From Cloeon dipterum (taxonomy: Eukaryota > Arthropoda > Insecta > Ephemeroptera > Baetidae): a DNA stretch of 64,000 bases. Each line of letters opens with the position of its first letter. The first letter of the stretch is position 1. Location of the stretch: contig NC_088789.1 of the NCBI RefSeq assembly GCF_949628265.1, forward strand, positions 1,550,001 through 1,614,000. The letters run 5' to 3'. Made by a program: the position numbers and the translations under genes. The notes below the pieces were generated by a model. The model worked only from the letters and a program-made list of their open reading frames with translations. It was not told the origin of the DNA and did not search any database. Positions 3,214 through 11,870 of the stretch are shown here, piece after piece.

Positions 3214-3583
3214 ATGTCTCTTTGGCGAAGTTTCTGAATACTCCAATCGATTCTTGATGGTCAAATTAGGTAAAATGGATATTTTTTCCGACGTGCGGAC
3301 CTTTTTTCCCGCCAAAACAATATGAATGCGAGAAGTGCGCATGCGTCAGGGCTGGCTGGATCTGGCAAAGAAGTCCTTCGTACAGGTGGTCTCGTCTGTA
3401 AGTGCTCAGAACAGCTCTGACGCATGCGCAGTTCTCGCATTCATATTGTTTTGGCGGGAACAAAGTTCTAATTGTGCTACGCACGTCACGCTCGACTTTT
3501 TGGTCGGAAAATATCCACTTTACCTAATTTGACCCTCAAGAATCGATTGGTGGGCTCAGAAACTTAGTCAAAGACGATCTTTA
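3214..3583. mobile_element. Foldback element, family B, copy 1
   Basis: The two halves are inverted repeats. Both ends carry versions of AAGTTTCTGA...CCAATCGATTCTTGA...AATTAGGTAAA, and the inner halves carry GCATGCGTC with CAATATGAATGCGAGAA in opposite orientations. It lies about 280 bp upstream of the mosaic lectin gene. Sister copies are at 11165-11468, 17278-17443 (one arm), 35746-36140 and 39349-39729. Confidence 0.75.
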
Positions 3584-3860: not shown

Positions 3861-6800
3861 ATGCTTTGCAGTTTGCGATCGGCCGTCAACAGCATGAAGC
3901 TGATTTTTCCTGCAATTTTGATCGTAACTGTGAGTACGCCTCAATTTAATTATCTCCCAATTCTTATATAACCTTTCTCTAGATTTACCTGTGTTGCATT
4001 GAAGGAGCAAGGAATAGAAAAGTCAAGATTATTGGCAAAAGCAAATATATATTTTTATTTTAAATTCTGCTTAATGTTACGCAACAAATATTTTAGATAT
4101 TAAAGTTGTTGTCAAGCAAGCGAAGCCCGCAGCAAATGCTCGACGAAAGTTTGTTATCAGATGCTGTGGACGTCAAAAATGCTCTAAATTTAGTTCACCG
4201 TCCAATAAAACACAATCTCGAAGTAGCACCGGAAAGGTATAGATGGATTATTAAAATTATAAACAAATCACGTGAATCTCCAATTGAAGGCAAATTCTGG
4301 AATAACGATAGAAGCAGAAGCCACAAGAAATGCAGAGGCCTCAGAAAATTCCGAAAATTCAAAACAAGACATTGCAACTACAGAGAAAGATAACTTGCAA
4401 ACGAGCGGAGACAAATTAATGACGCAAACCGATGCTGCTCAAAATGATTTGCCAACGGATGCACAGCCGATAGCTGCCACGGAGCTATCAACTTCACCAC
4501 CCTCAAATAATCAGCCGACTGTTGATCCAATTCTAACAAACAATGAAAATTCCCCTGCTGGTCCAGAATTAACAACTCCTCTATTTTCCGCCCCAACACT
4601 TGGTAAAAAATAACCCATATTTTTGCAATTTGCGATTTCTAATCGTTTTTTAACTTTTAAAAGGCGCATCTGCTAACTCACCTGGAATTTCAAACGCCAT
4701 TACTACAGCACCATTAATAGTTGGGTCAACAATTAAAGCATTGGGAACAACGGCAACAACTATTGCACCACCAAAAGCATCATCTGTTACAACAGTTAAT
4801 CTAGGAACAACAAAAATTAGCGCGGCATCAGCGACATCAAGTAAAGCAGCAGCAGCAACAACAACAATGGCAGCAGCAGCAGCAACAACAAAAAATAATG
4901 CAGCAGCAGTGACAACTGGAGCTGCAGCAGCAACAACTGCAGCAGCAGCAGCAGCAGCGACAACAAATAATGCACCAGCAGCAGCAACAACAACTGTAGC
5001 AGCAGCAACAACAACTACAGCTGCAACAACCACGACAACTCAGGTTCTACGATTGCATTATCAGATTTTAACTCAACTAAAGAAAAATATAATTAGTTTT
5101 CCCTTTGTCCAAAGTCGTCATGTGCAACTTATGCGATGGTAACATATTATCTGATTTAACCAAATTAAATTATTTTATTTAAAATTTTTAACTTCAAAGG
5201 CTCTAGATAGCGCGCAGCAGAGTGGTATGACCAAAAGTCTGAATCAGCAAATTTCCGGTCGTGCTCATATTTCCAACTAATTAGCTGCACCGACGGCAGG
5301 AAAATTCACATCGGCCTGTGGCAGAACCTTTTTCATTGGAAGCACTACAGTAATTAATTCTTAGTAATGGTTGCCATTTTGATTTTCAATTTGCATATGA
5401 CTTCAGTCTGACTACAAAACGGCTGCAGCCAGTTGCTTGAAATTGAATTTAACTTTGGTTTCTCTCAACACAATTGCAAAGTTTCCTTGTATTTCCCAGC
5501 TGGTGCTTGGTAAAATTCTACTTTATCGTGCTTTAATTTTGATTCACATTTAAAGAATCGTTAAAAAAATATTGGACCTCTGGTTCCAACGAGGGTGAAA
5601 TGTGTGACGTGTTGAAAACGTACAGCTGGTGTTCAATGAACGGAATCAATTTTGGAACACAAATCATGAATACATCTCTGTGGAGCAATCCTGTTGCCAA
5701 AGACCCAACTCTCGAACGCTGCATTTCTTATATTGTCGACGGACTTAAGAGTGGTTTGCTGCATTCTGCTTGCACAGAAAAACTGTTATATATTTGCGAG
5801 GTACAATTTTGTATGCATTGGAGGATAAATGCGGTTTTTGATTACGATATTTAGCCATCATGTGCGATGCCTGCCTCTCCAGAGTGCAAGGCTAACGTAT
5901 ATCATTTGAAATTATAATTTAATATGATCTAATTAAGTACGCAGGCATCATTATTCGATGGAGCTGGAAACCTGATTGGTAAAAAGAGTATTAATAGATG
6001 TGTCAGTCAGCCGCGAGGCTATGTGCGTGCCTGCTCTCAGCCAATGAGATGGCGGGATTGAGTCACGTGACTGCTCGAACTGGGCGTGCTTCTCTGATCT
6101 CGCTAGATGTCTCTACTTTCGCAGTAGCCTTCTTACCAGACATTTTTCGAACGCGAATTTCTCGGTTGTTTTATTTCTCGTGGTCATGGTTTCGACTTAA
6201 TGTTGTACATCAACTCGTGCGCTTTCGTTTGAAACCAATTGAGACGCAGATGGCTTCAGTAATTTTGACACGAAAACTCATTTAACATGGGAAAAGATAG
6301 GGAAGTGGATCTGATGGCTTTTAGATCTCGCGGCTGAGACCTCTAATTTTTCAACGATTTTCCTCGTATTTTAATAATTTAAAATTTAGACCCAGGAAGT
6401 TACGGATATTGGCCAAATGCGTGTGGTGACACGTTTCTTTTTGGAAATCGACCAGTACAACCGCATTATAATTGGTTTTCAAATTAAAATAAAATAAACA
6501 ACAATTTTAGCTCACTTGGGAGGCCAACGTTAAAATGTGCTGCAGTTTGGGCATGCAACCATTTTACATTAATTCCAAAAGCGATCAATCATGTATATCA
6601 AGCTTGACTCTTTTTAAAAACTGGAAATACAACTTAAACTACTGGACGGGCGCCACGAGGCAAGGGTGCCCCCAGCAGTGGGCTTGGGGTGGCAATGAGA
6701 TGACCGGAATTCCCACCGATATAGTTTGGGAAGTCGGCCAGCCGGACAACAAGGGTGGCAGAGAAGATTGCATACACTTGAAAGTGAAAAACAGCACGGA

Positions 6801-9189
6801 AGGTACTGTGATCACCGACCGAAACTGCACAGACAAGTACATTTTAGCATGCAGAGTGAGTTTTGCTGCGATTAATTTTTTTTTGGTAAATTCTGCCGTT
6901 TAATTAATCTAGGGAAAACCGGCTTTGAGCTCGTACTGCAGTAAACCATCTTGCCCCAATCAAGACTGCACCCTTAATGTAAATATAGGAGGATTATCAT
7001 AGTTATCATAATAATTCCATATCATATTTTATCTAGGACACACTTTTTACTAAGTTCAAAAACGGCACAGTGATTCTCAATGGTGAGAATAATTATTTTA
7101 TATTTTCTTGTATGCATACTTATATTTGGTTAAAAAGATTACTTTTCATACGGATCTTGGTTTGATGCGTGCGGCAGAAAAATTCTCTTCGCTGAAAAAC
7201 CAGTTGATTATGACGCTCTGTTGAATAAAGGATTATGCCTGAAAAAATTAAATTTCCAGCTAAGTGTGGTTGATGCAAGAAAATATTGCTGCCAAATCGG
7301 ATTCACAATGCTGTCTTTGGAAACTGTAGAAAAGCAAATATGCTTCAATAATTTAGCAAGGCGTAAACATTGTTTTTATTTATCTTCCAAGATTTATGTC
7401 CGAGATTCGCAAACAGGGCATAAATATACAATTTCTGGAGATTACTGGACTTCAGGAACTAATCAAAATTGCACTAGCAAATTTTTGTGGTGCTCAAATG
7501 AAAAGAATTTCTTTAAGAACGAAACCAGGTGGAAAGCAGGAAATCCAACTGCAAACGGAAATTGCGTTTACGCAAACTTCAACTCATCCGATGCAAACTA
7601 TACAGACCTAGGAACAGCAAATTGCATTGAAAAAAAGAGATTCGTTTGCGAGGTACACGAAAGGGGTTATTGGTGGAAACCAATTTTAATCCTGTCTTTA
7701 GATGCGACAGAAGAACACTGGGAGAGATGCTCTTCAAAGCGAATGCGCGATTCTCTGGAATGTCTCCGCTAGTGCGTTTATTATTTATTTATTATTAATT
7801 TTCTTTATATGATCGCTGGTATCTTTTTCAGCTGAAATAGCTTTGTTCAAACTTGGACTGGCCGGCACAGCTTCATATTCGTATCGGCTGAAGGTTCGAA
7901 ACATTTAATTTTAATGGATTATCTGATTCAAATATATGTGAAGTGCTTCATCCGATGCATTGGCATAAACGTGGGAATGGTCAGTTCACTATATCTGCAC
8001 ACCCTCTTGTTTAAAATACACTCATCCACGCTGATTGCAGTTTGCGGACAACGCTTTGGTTACTGACGAGCTTCTGCGCAAACTGGAAATAATTGCAAAT
8101 GACGACCCTCCAACTCTGCAAAGCGGATTCGATGCTTTCGACATATGCAGTCCATTGAGTCAGTCATTAGCATAATTATTGTTCAGACGTGGTGAAACCA
8201 AAAATCGATCCTATTTTAAAATGCAGGGTACGATGACGAGTGCCTCACAGCGTCAAACATTTACACGTGTGGACTACAAAATGCACCAATTTTGACCACC
8301 GGCATGGTGGACGACGGTAAAAATAATGTGACGATCGTAAGAACTTAAATTTAAATCTTAGCTTTTGATCGCCATTGAATCATTTTAAAAGTATGGTCCC
8401 CCTGCTCACTGTACTATAAGAGAAAACGCGTGCTATATTAGCGATGATTTGCCATGCGTTGTAGACGTAAGTATCGAGACTTTATTTTGAGAATTTATCA
8501 CTCATTGTCAGTTATCTTGATCATTATTATAGGCAGCTCGCCGCACCAAATTTTTGGCTGGAAATGGTTTTAATCCAGAAATAGAGAAAATAAATACTGA
8601 TCGTAATTTCAAAATCAGATCCCCTCATGACGTACGCAATTAAAGCTGGAAAAGTCTATGGAATATCGCAAGACTTGTACTCGCCCAGTCCAATAGATAT
8701 TGTAACGACAAATTTAAGAACCAACAAATTTATGACCGACAATTATTTTTGCAGTCTCTCCCTCAGGCATTTACGAATTGCTGCAGCGTGGGCTTGAGGC
8801 TTGCGCATCCAATGTCTGTCAATGAAATTACTTTCTTACGCAATTACGGTACTTACCTCTAATTTAATTAAAGTCAAATGATAACAATTTTCTAATATTT
8901 TCCCTGGTTAGTGGATACTTCGCCTAACGCAATCGTACTCGTGGGTGAACTTTTAAAAATAAACAGTACTCACAACGCCTGGTGCGAGACAGGAGAACCT
9001 GTGCCTGATTATCTCTACGATGTAACCGATAATATCGGCGTCCCTCCCGAAAACCAGAATTCTAAACCTGATTGTAATTATAATGCATATACCTTGCACA
9101 CTGACACCAGATTGCTGATGAAATTAACTCTTGGCCTCACCTATAACGATCCTACCGCTGCAAGATTTTATGTTTGTCAGAATGTATAA
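3861..9189 (+). CDS. Secreted mosaic protein: Ala/Thr-rich mucin-like region, four C-type lectin domains and an embedded OBP-like module
   Basis: A chain of about 26 exons encodes roughly 1,150 residues. Exons: 3861-3929, 3983-~4021, 4097-4236, 4290-4602, 4664-5043, 5200-5257, 5285-5349, 5407-5509, 5556-5800, 5855-5896, 5945-5978, 6390-6454, 6511-6855, 6913-6978, 7037-7082, 7138-7652, 7702-7771, 7832-7893, 7944-7979, 8041-8158, 8227-8336, 8392-8466, 8533-8602, 8646-8701, 8767-8848, 8912-9189. All joins from the third exon onward keep phase with GT-AG borders; the exon 2/3 join is unresolved. Exon 1 encodes a signal peptide (MKLIFPAILIVT; start at 3861 or 3894). Order: basic segment, Ser/Thr-rich and Ala/Thr-rich segments, CTLD1, CTLD2, CTLD3, OBP-like six-cysteine module, cysteine linker, CTLD4. 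Each CTLD after the first follows a short cysteine-containing linker. The protein is probably extracellular and may bind glycans or small ligands (inferred). It could instead be adjacent genes spliced by eye, but phase continuity argues against that. Confidence 0.72.
4664..5043 (+). other. Ala/Thr-rich low-complexity coding exon
   Basis: Exon 5 of the mosaic lectin gene reads mostly as alternating runs of Ala and Thr, built from GCA and ACA codons. It is bounded by an acceptor before 4664 and a CAG|gt donor after 5043. The preceding exon is Ser/Thr/Pro/Asn-rich. This composition suggests an O-glycosylated mucin-like stalk (inferred). The GCA/ACA repetition suggests growth by repeat slippage. 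The valine/alanine-rich ORF on the opposite strand is an artefact of the same tract. Confidence 0.7.
5285..5800 (+). other. C-type lectin-like domain 1 (three exons)
   Basis: Exons 5285-5349, 5407-5509 and 5556-5800 encode an entry strand (ACGRTFFIGS), a helix with a Cys (ASCLKLNLTLVSL), YWTSGSN, LWSNP and a C-terminal ACTEKLLYICE. These match the order of the long-loop CTLD fold. The canonical EPN/QPD and WND sugar/calcium motifs are absent, so calcium-dependent sugar binding is doubtful. Confidence 0.75.
5979..6345 (+). mobile_element. Family E element (CCAAT/E-box foldback), one arm, in a lectin-gene intron
   Basis: It lies between exons ending at 5978 and starting at 6390 and is about 330 bp; the outer limits are approximate. 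It matches the right half of the element at 34055-34792, sharing AGCCAATGAGATGGCGGGAT, GTCACGTGAC (6062-6071), GCTAGATGTCTCTACT and AATTGAGACGC. The open frame across it is incidental. Confidence 0.7.
6390..6855 (+). other. C-type lectin-like domain 2, with a QPD motif
   Basis: Exons 6390-6454 and 6511-6855 encode WPNACGDTFLFGN, then WEANVKMCCSLGM, YWTGATRQGC and WEVGQPDNKGGREDC, ending NCTDKYILACR. QPD is the galactose-type motif of calcium-binding CTLDs and sits at the expected place before the long-loop Cys. The WND motif is not evident. This is the best candidate in the protein for real sugar binding. Confidence 0.78.
7138..7652 (+). other. C-type lectin-like domain 3 (single exon)
   Basis: One 515-bp exon encodes the whole domain, whereas CTLD1 and CTLD2 are interrupted after the first strand. 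Landmarks: SWFDACGRKILFAEKP, ARKYCCQIGFTMLSLET, YWTSGTNQNC, RWKAGNPTANGNCVY and NCIEKKRFVCE. NPT replaces the EPN/QPD triad and WND is absent. Confidence 0.75.
7702..8336 (+). other. Odorant-binding-protein-like six-cysteine module inside the lectin gene
   Basis: Exons 7702-7771, 7832-7893, 7944-7979, 8041-8158 and 8227-8336 are in phase with each other and with the flanking lectin exons. The translated cysteines are spaced C-X29-C-X3-C-X42-C-X8-C-X8-C. This fits the classical insect OBP (PBP/GOBP) signature, including the diagnostic C2-X3-C3 (CFIRC) and C5-X8-C6 (CLTASNIYTC). The segment is predicted to be mostly helical (TDELLRKLEIIAND). OBPs are normally stand-alone secreted ligand carriers; I see no own signal peptide here. 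A chance cysteine pattern is possible but unlikely given five matching spacings. Confidence 0.65.
8646..9189 (+). other. C-type lectin-like domain 4, divergent
   Basis: Exons 8646-8701, 8767-8848 and 8912-9189 encode PGKVYGISQDLYSP, then FTNCCSVGLRLAHPMS, then a long C-terminal part with WCETGEPVP, CNYNAY and ARFYVCQNV before the TAA stop. CC followed by VGLRL parallels CCSLGM of CTLD2. The first strand lacks the usual Cys and the sugar motifs are lost. The exon at 8646 needs an unusually short 43-bp intron (8603-8645). Confidence 0.62.
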
Positions 9190-9828: not shown

Positions 9829-10208
9829 TAAAGAGGATGGATACCACAAAATCCTAGTTGCCAATGCATGAACTCATCCCTTAGGATTCAGTTGGAGCCA
9901 AAATTGACCTACGTACATTTTTGAGAAAAGGGGCTGCAAAGTTAGCTCTGTCTCCTACTAGGAATGTCTCTCCTTACTTGAAATTCTATTTTATTTCAAA
10001 ACAAAGAGTTTCCCTAAAAGGTTTAAAACACGCTGTTGGACAGATCTCGACGAGAGGAATCGAAATCTCCAAAGAAAATGTGGTCAAGCGCAGCAAATTT
10101 TGGAGGAAAATTGATTTTTTGCTGAGGCTAGCTACTTTTTGGATTATTACAAATTGTTCCAACAATTCAAATAATTTTCAACTGACGTTTTGTATTGATT
10201 CACTTTAA
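9829..10208 (+). repeat. Family C interspersed repeat, copy 1 (+)
   Basis: It begins near GATACCACAAAATCC, includes TTGCCAATGCATGAACTCAT and CCCTTAGGATTCAGTTG, and has an internal hairpin around CAGATCTCGACGAGAGGAAT. It ends near TTGATTCACTTTAAG. Other copies: 11482-11870 (+), 15857-16270 (-), 21112-21300 (-, partial), 42531-42885 (-), 44948-45292 (+), 52022-52340 (+), 53868-54030 (-, partial), 59622-59945 (+), 61715-62103 (-). No coding capacity is evident; class unknown. Confidence 0.8.
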
Positions 10209-11164
10209 GAAAAGAATGACATCGCAAAGTCCTTTGTAGATTACACACAGAGAAGGTTCTAATGTAGACGCACACTTCGCAGTTCTAAGGCTTCCTTTTC
10301 AGCACGGCAAAAGCTATGTCTTATTTGCATAAAACTTTGCTGTTTGCGTCTTACGAACTTTCAAGCGCCACGAAGATAATGCGAGAAGCGAGGCTGTTGC
10401 CTTTTTCGGAAGTTTATTTTCCATTGTAAAAAAATACAAACTCCCCGGAGAGTATTGCCACGTTATTCCGAGAAGCATAAAAGAGCAAAAAGCCGGAGTG
10501 TATTTAACCCAGTCCGGCTCTTCAATTAATTAGACAGCTGGCGTCGATTACATGTGGTCATCGTGGCTAGAATTGTAGAATTTGCAAATCGCACACGCAA
10601 CGCGATTGGTTTATTTGGCCTGGATGCGGCCGATCGATGGACGGGTCGTGTACATCATCGGACGCTAAAGATGATAAATCTCCTCCATCGGCGCAGTATC
10701 TTTCATCATCGGGCGCTGTCCATTTTCGCATTAAAGAAATTGCTCATATCCATTATCTGCTGACGAAAAAGATTGCTCAAAATAGATAAACAACCTACCG
10801 TGCGGCCGAACCTCTTAAAATCGCCGCAATTACCTCATCACTCAGCTTTTTTCACCGCGTGCAGATGTATCGATCGGCGAAAAAAGAGCGCACGTGAACC
10901 GATGATAAGGAAGATGCGCCATGTCTCATGTTTTTTGCGCAATTGTCTCAGAGAGGTGCGGGTTCGTTGCTGATTAGATTGCTGCTGCGGTGAATCAGAC
11001 GTCGTCGCCGTGATAGCTGGCGCTGATTGGAGACTTGTCATCGGAAAGTTATGCATATCTCGTCAAGAATTACAGGAAAATAAAATTCTTTGCCTAGGGA
11101 ATTATATGGCAGTTTAAAAATGTGGCTTCCTGGAAAATATTTCCTCTCTTGCTAGAAAATTAAT
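10209..11164. other. Non-coding stretch, nothing supported
   Basis: Unique-looking sequence with a moderately GC-rich part (10540-11050). I see no coding exon, RNA gene or repeat structure I can defend. Confidence 0.4.
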
Positions 11165-11468
11165 TTAAAGACCGTCTTTGACGAATTTTCTGGGCACACC
11201 AATCGATTCTTGAGGGTCTCGAATTAGGTAAAGTTGATATTTTTTCCGACCAAAAAGTCCAGTGAACTTTTTCCCGCCAAAACAATATGAACTGCGAGAA
11301 GTGCGCATGCGTCAGAGCTGGCTGGATCTGACAAAGAAGTCGTTTATACAGGGTGTCTCTGTGGCGGGAAAAAATTTCGCACGTCGCGCTCGACTCTTTG
11401 GTCGGAAAAATATCCTCTTTACCTAATTTGATCGGTGTGCTCAGAAATTTCGTCAAAGGCGGTCTTTA
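11165..11468. mobile_element. Foldback element, family B, copy 2
   Basis: The terminal inverted repeats are TTTAAAGACCGTCTTTGAC... on the left and ...GTCAAAGGCGGTCTTTAAA on the right. The internal GTGCGCATGCGTCAGAGCTG is shared with copies at 3.2, 17.3, 35.7 and 39.3 kb. A family C repeat follows almost immediately (from 11482). Confidence 0.8.
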
Positions 11469-11481
11469 AATAGAGATCGAT

Positions 11482-11870
11482 GCTAAAAAAATCCTGGAAA
11501 ATGGTTGTTGCCAATGCACGAACTCATCCCTTAGGATTCAGTTGAAGCCAAAATCGACTTTAATAGCACCGTCAATTTTTTTTTAGAAATGACCATTACT
11601 TTTAAAATTGTGAGGACTGTCTCCTTACTTGAAATCTTATCTTAATTTCTATACAAAAAAAAATCCCTAATAGGTTTCATACGCTGTTGAACAGATCTCG
11701 ACGAGAGAAATCGAGATCTGCCAAGAAAATGTGGTCAAGAGCTGGAAATTTAGGGAAAAATTGGAATAAATTGAAGCAAATGTTATTTTTTACTAATAAC
11801 AAATTGTAGAAAAAAATTGTTTATTGCATCCAACAATTAAAATAATTTTCAATTGTCATCCTGTAAAGCG
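11482..11870 (+). repeat. Family C interspersed repeat, copy 2 (+)
   Basis: Carries AATCCTGGAAAATGGTTGTT, the ACTCATCCCTTAGGATTCAG block and the AGATCTCGACGAGAGAAATC hairpin; ends near CATCCTGTAAAG. Confidence 0.8.

Follow-up and report, generated by a model that had tools for sequence, protein, structure and literature searches.

Classic odorant-binding proteins (OBPs) are small, stand-alone secreted proteins. They are usually seen as free proteins of the sensory lymph, and OBP gene counts are used in arguments about the evolution of smell. Rearranged forms have also been described: PMC3428353 reports double-domain OBPs in Nasonia and mosquitoes, and dimer OBPs in Drosophila. The published genome of the mayfly Cloeon dipterum (180 Mb) was assigned 191 OBPs, the largest insect set at publication, and 82 of 167 OBPs were found expressed in gills, several of them in horseradish peroxidase (HRP)-positive gill cell clusters (PMC7250882). 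The main text of that report treats these genes as OBPs, and the word lectin is absent from it. Here, we describe a gene of C. dipterum that encodes an OBP domain between C-type lectin domains (CTLDs), located in a stretch of 64,000 nucleotides (contig NC_088789.1, positions 1,550,001 to 1,614,000, forward strand; hereafter, the window), and its many relatives in the same genome. A literature search, for which preprints and subscription papers were mostly beyond scope, found, among the papers listed, no title or opening of an abstract reporting a CTLD–OBP fusion; both domains are known, and the fused architecture and its scale appear to be new.

An OBP domain inside a multi-CTLD gene model

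The OBP domain is encoded by five exons (7702–7771, 7832–7893, 7944–7979, 8041–8158, and 8227–8336) that have GT-AG borders throughout and specify 132 amino acids. Its cysteines follow the pattern C-X29-C-X3-C-X42-C-X8-C-X8-C, and the domain alone matches the Pfam family PBP_GOBP (PF01395) at 31.1 bits (E 2.8e-7, cut-off 22), which bears out the six-cysteine, OBP-like module that a preliminary description of the locus had placed at 7702–8336. A phmmer search of the PDB with this domain returned three matches at E <= 1, all of them OBPs. The OBP domains of 24 paralogs all match PBP_GOBP at E <= 0.001, and a profile built from these 24 domains retrieves 17 PDB sequences at E <= 0.01, the best at E 1.7e-10; of these, 15 bear the name odorant-binding protein and the other two are AGAP gene products of mosquitoes.

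The module is an inner part of a longer protein. The exon encoding the third lectin domain (CTLD3) ends at 7652 in phase 0, the OBP domain opens in the same phase at 7702, and the frame runs unbroken on through the following linker, in keeping with the phase compatibility proposed before. The first OBP exon opens with an ATG codon that is not followed by a signal peptide, and the 49-nt intron ahead of it is too short to hold a signal-peptide exon. The earlier claim that the module has neither start nor signal peptide of its own is strongly supported. Since it lies within a model of 1,116 amino acids, it is not a small stand-alone OBP; the whole window protein contains a single PBP_GOBP stretch and is thus not a double-domain OBP either. 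The spliced translation, for which a profile check had been proposed, exceeds the cut-off of 22.6 for Lectin_C, with 43.7 bits in two stretches, and that of 22 for PBP_GOBP, with 26.2 bits. Sequence comparisons strongly support an OBP module, without a start of its own, in a secreted multi-CTLD protein.

The gene model comprises 23 exons on the forward strand (3861–9189), all with GT-AG borders, and runs from an ATG at 3861 to a TAA at 9187–9189 without a frameshift or inner stop. It was obtained with our own spliced aligner under the guidance of window segments, which leaves more uncertainty in the splice sites than in the domain order. The latter reads signal peptide, CCG-x2-KC motif, Thr/Ala-rich stretch, CTLD1 to CTLD3, OBP, cysteine linker, and a divergent CTLD-like domain. 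The preliminary description had covered 7138–9189; the CTLD–OBP arrangement in that span stands, and the gene model begins well before it, at 3861, with its own signal peptide. The features of the gene are as follows.

3861..3933, + strand: exon 1, carrying the start codon, a further ATG at 3894, and the signal peptide MLCSLRSAVNSMKLIFPAILIVTV (from a simple scan of hydrophobicity rather than a trained predictor)
4097..4236, + strand: exon 2, conserved RR...CCG-x2-KC motif ARRKFVIRCCGRQKC (gene model and paralogs)
4290..5043, + strand: exons 3–4 (4290–4602, 4664–5043), Ser/Thr/Ala-rich, mucin-like (gene model)
5115..5800, + strand: exons 5–8 (5115–5138, 5211–5349, 5429–5509, 5556–5800), CTLD1 (gene model and paralogs; Lectin_C below cut-off)
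5855..5978, + strand: exons 9–10, cysteine linker PSCAMPASPECKAN and short linker exon (gene model)
6390..6855, + strand: exons 11–12 (6390–6454, 6511–6855), CTLD2 with QPD motif and TDRNC (Lectin_C)
6913..7082, + strand: exons 13–14, cysteine linker joining CTLD2 to CTLD3 (gene model)
7138..7652, + strand: exon 15, CTLD3 (gene model and family profile)
7653..7701, + strand: intron of 49 nt, phase 0, at the CTLD3/OBP border
7702..8336, + strand: exons 16–20, OBP domain (Pfam, cysteine spacing, gene model)
8392..8466, + strand: exon 21, cysteine-rich linker YGPPAHCTIRENACYISDDLPCVVD (gene model)
8755..9189, + strand: exons 22–23 (8755–8848, 8912–9186), divergent CTLD4-like C-terminal domain, stop codon at 9187–9189 (CTLD kinship weak)

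Conservation and constraint of the OBP domain

Six cysteines in OBP spacing are kept in 46 of 47 paralog models, the exception being L029, a fragment that has a stop and lacks the first cysteine. One group of models, subfamily B, carries one additional cysteine immediately after the third. The pairwise ratio of nonsynonymous to synonymous substitution rates (dN/dS) has a median of 0.27 over 180 OBP pairs with dS between 0.05 and 1.5, not one of which exceeds 1, and a median of 0.15 over 258 pairs for the CTLD3 half; the pairs in each set are non-independent. For this analysis, 41 of the 47 models were kept; L029 was dropped, as were L017, L032, and L035, which have a stop in the automatic model, and L007 and L039, which have a frameshift. 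Left out beforehand were L030, a second instance of the L044 locus, and L002, L003, L006, and L026, which are the window gene itself. Over 17 loci, identity is 64% for OBP and 65% for CTLD3, and 43% for CTLD4. Distances between CTLD3 copies follow those between OBP copies over all models (Mantel r 0.97), largely reflecting the split into subfamilies, and also within subfamily C (22 models, Mantel r 0.52, with none of 2000 shuffles as high).

The CTLD3–OBP join across the genome

We searched the 190-Mb genome, which includes five long contigs of 33–43 Mb. The OBP query gave 184 matches, 149 of which were grouped into 109 loci, and 150 of the 570 candidates for CTLD3 were scored; all genome counts given here are therefore lower bounds. 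Among the matches listed, a CTLD3-type match precedes the OBP on the same strand by no more than 2.5 kb in 99 of the 109 loci, and no locus has one downstream or on the opposite strand. Four of the other ten (L004, L021, L024, and L027) follow a CTLD3 end in spliced models, three have a join-spanning exon upstream, and one is the fragment L029; the last two of the 109 loci, C4:31081063 and C4:31178529, were left outside the locus-by-locus check. The order CTLD3, OBP, linker recurs in all of 20 loci inspected over 10 kb, 19 of which contain an open frame, without an intron, from the last CTLD3 cysteine through OBP helix 1 to the first OBP cysteine. Within these 20 loci, the centred gene of L036 and that of L050 gave no CTLD1 or CTLD2 match, and a CTLD4-like match is weak or missing in some.

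An 88-residue query spanning the end of CTLD3 and the start of OBP traced the join itself. Among its 150 listed matches, 104 reach residue 85 or beyond, none with an inner stop, so the fusion does not depend on guessed splicing; identity is at least 63% for 96 of them and 31–43% for the other eight. The paralogs thereby keep the CTLD3 end and OBP helix 1 in one open stretch, which upholds the placement of the OBP module within one multi-CTLD protein. For 92 of the 104, a second-half OBP exon follows on the same strand at a distance of no more than 2.5 kb. Conversely, when the second-half exons were condensed to a list of 98 places, 96 had a join-spanning exon upstream, and the other two belong to the L047 locus. 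The remaining 46 listed join matches, including the window gene and L047, stop at residue 67–80, which is what CTLDs that lack OBP, or whose join is interrupted by an intron, would give. In the window gene and L047, a phase-0 intron parts CTLD3 and OBP precisely at the join. The same is true of 18 subfamily B models out of 19, and the remaining one, L007, shows a frameshift at this point in its automatic model. Subfamily B, whose models are all on contig 3 except for one on contig 5, retains conserved CTLD2-like, CTLD3, OBP, cysteine-linker, and C-terminal segments within 3-kb stretches.

Taken together, at least 125 loci carry the join (the 104 matches, L047, the window gene, and 19 subfamily B loci), including some broken copies. 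Judged by these genome searches, the window gene is a member of a large, lineage-expanded family of lectin–OBP hybrids. We also noted a cluster of seven divergent join-spanning matches (31–43% identity) at C3:13737015-13779690, which is possibly a further hybrid subfamily. An exon-by-exon search of the genome with PF01395 gave L001 as its sole match (C3:3625495-3625665), a classic-type OBP exon (CFMEC...). Its 3-kb locus contains no convincing CTLD match; the genome therefore probably contains stand-alone OBPs as well. A genome search with the L001 exon yielded no second locus below E 0.3.

N-terminal region and surroundings of the gene

The N-terminal CCG motif was found by pattern in 10 of 20 paralogous loci, all 10 of which have a signal-peptide-like exon upstream, and the corresponding segment of L044 was matched in 14 of 18 other loci; the full L044 model, which includes forced frameshifts and one stop, served only as a guide. 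Within the mucin-like region, positions 4797–5042 consist of GCA/ACA repeats coding for Ala and Thr, with eight overlapping direct copies of 72 nt, and are likely variable in length. A frameshift ahead of CTLD4 near 8632 was considered and rejected, as the linker exon 8392–8466 splices straight to 8755, as in the paralogs, with the frame intact.

Rfam and tRNA scans of the window gave no match. Upstream of the gene lies a palindromic repeat (3219–3285 / 3508–3574) with 67-nt arms that are 88% alike, and an inner 57-nt pair at 93%; a related second copy is found at 11155–11359, about 8 kb away. The element at 3219–3574 looks like a small inverted-repeat transposon of the miniature inverted-repeat transposable element (MITE) type. 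Downstream, the two members of a dispersed repeat pair (9848–10114 / 11498–11765) are spaced by 1.65 kb and share two blocks with a similarity of 84% and 90%.

Lectin domains

CTLD2 is the best-defined lectin domain, with a Lectin_C match of 33.7 bits in the window and 24.6 bits in L044 (cut-off 22.6), and its profile finds C-type lectins in the PDB. The motifs QPDN and TDR-x-C are present in all 19 CTLD2 copies that were resolved among 21 loci. A QPD motif marks a galactose-type sugar site, and its conservation suggests that CTLD2 has a working calcium and galactose-type sugar site.

The preliminary description had placed lectin domains on both sides of the OBP module. The upstream one, CTLD3, is supported by its family profile. 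The window copy alone scores 18.1 bits for Lectin_C, below the cut-off of 22.6, and all 13 family members examined match at E <= 0.1 (best 4.5e-7), with 34.1 bits for the copy in the subfamily B locus L012; in the PDB, this profile retrieves C-type lectins with solved structures. An AlphaFold2 prediction of the single window CTLD3 exon, run without an alignment, was discarded at a mean predicted local distance difference test score (pLDDT) of 38.7. Evidence that the downstream domain, CTLD4, is a lectin domain is weak: its profile gives weak hhalign matches to CTLD2 and CTLD3 and matched no CTLD in the PDB. The L044 copy of CTLD1 scores 21.1 bits, borderline with respect to the cut-off.

Proposed function and alternative explanations

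Against the background of the observed single frame, domain order, join in paralogs, six cysteines, and coding constraint, we favor a reading in which the gene encodes one secreted protein, with OBP between CTLD3 and the cysteine linker and CTLD-like end, that would act as a glycan-held carrier of small hydrophobic ligands; we put its probability at about 0.5. In this mechanism, the Thr/Ala-rich stretch and the CTLDs, chiefly the QPD-bearing CTLD2, would anchor the protein to glycans in mucus, in the extracellular matrix, or on the cuticle surface, where the OBP domain would capture small hydrophobic molecules. Anchoring would keep the ligand carriers from being washed off in water, and expansion of the family would supply many ligand specificities, yielding a tethered and diversified carrier set. 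Plausible sites are chemosensory or epithelial surfaces of the aquatic nymph, such as gills and antennae.

Several observations weigh against such a carrier. The WND position of CTLD2 reads ITD, MTD, or LTD, and the CTLD2 of L012 has a QPD motif without a Lectin_C match. CTLD3 has no EPN or QPD motif, window CTLD1 scores 15.2 bits for Lectin_C, and none of nine CTLD4-like members matches Lectin_C at E <= 1, nor does the L012 copy. With CTLD3 motif-less, CTLD1 below the cut-off, and CTLD4 barely recognizable, CTLD2 is the only good candidate for glycan binding. Twelve of the 104 join-spanning matches have no second-half OBP exon in the condensed list. Distances of CTLD3 and OBP are uncorrelated in subfamily B (17 models, Mantel r 0.08, a value reached in 463 of 2000 shuffles), which gene conversion or a weak signal could explain. 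Finally, expression of C. dipterum OBPs in gills and head fits a surface carrier only on the assumption that the annotated OBPs are these genes; it is likely that they are.

The same architecture may be read as an immune hybrid, a secreted recognition molecule of hemolymph or gut whose CTLDs would bind microbial sugars and whose OBP would bind microbial lipids or other hydrophobics, with the expansion forming an immune repertoire. Insect C-type lectins are often immune, and a secreted multi-CTLD layout in large, clustered, sequence-diverse families suits this role. We consider it possible but unlikely, as none of the 180 OBP pairs has a dN/dS above 1, in a test insensitive to selection at few sites, and as C. 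dipterum OBPs, if they are the same genes, belong mostly to expression clusters of the nymph and are strongly expressed in head and gills (PMC7250882). Rather doubtful is a structural or adhesive role, in which the protein would be a bulk part of mucus, gill coat, egg glue, or cuticle surface and OBP a ligand-free, disulfide-rich spacer. The mucin-like stretch, the many cysteines, and the many copies speak for it, as do the non-olfactory roles of some OBP-fold proteins; against it stand the near-invariant six cysteines (46 of 47 models) and an OBP identity that is close to that of CTLD3 and exceeds that of CTLD4. This conservation is as expected of a working domain, although a spacer could also be constrained.

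A further explanation is that a neighboring CTLD gene and an OBP gene merely look fused, and the phase-0 intron that parts the modules in the window gene, L047, and most of subfamily B would allow it. We regard it as highly improbable. One open stretch crosses the border in 104 of the 150 listed matches and in 19 of the 20 10-kb loci, which led us to reject two separate genes; moreover, the 49-nt gap is too small for a signal-peptide exon, and inverse order or strand occurs in none of the 109 loci among the matches listed.

Viewed across the genome, we lean, if only slightly, toward a broader proposal, namely that most C. dipterum OBPs are parts of secreted mucin–lectin proteins and represent a second, matrix-tethered use of the OBP fold, which would have arisen when an OBP module flanked by phase-0 introns was inserted into a CTLD gene and amplified to over 100 genes, serving ligand capture in water. 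At least 125 loci joining OBP to lectin domains change the meaning of OBP gene counts. They also offer a concrete idea of how small-molecule carriers may be retained on a surface under water, and the claim of chemosensory function for mayfly gills becomes testable on one defined protein.

Comparison with known systems

The domain resembles classic six-cysteine OBPs (PBP/GOBP, PF01395) in its Pfam match, its cysteine spacing, and its profile match to solved OBPs. It differs from them as an inner domain without its own signal peptide, with lectin domains on both sides, the C-terminal one being weakly supported. On the lectin side, the closest counterparts are the mosquito mosGCTLs (PDB 9ta9 and 9t9z), with which the gene shares CTLD profile matches and, in CTLD2, a QPD-type motif; the solved mosGCTL chains, at 151–198 residues, are too short to hold a CTLD, an OBP, and a mucin-like stretch. 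The exceptional number of OBP loci parallels the expansion to 191 OBPs in PMC7250882. Like the double-domain and dimer OBPs of PMC3428353, the family is a lineage-specific, rearranged OBP architecture that has expanded in clusters. Those proteins, as described there, combine OBP with OBP, whereas the C. dipterum genes combine OBP with C-type lectin domains.

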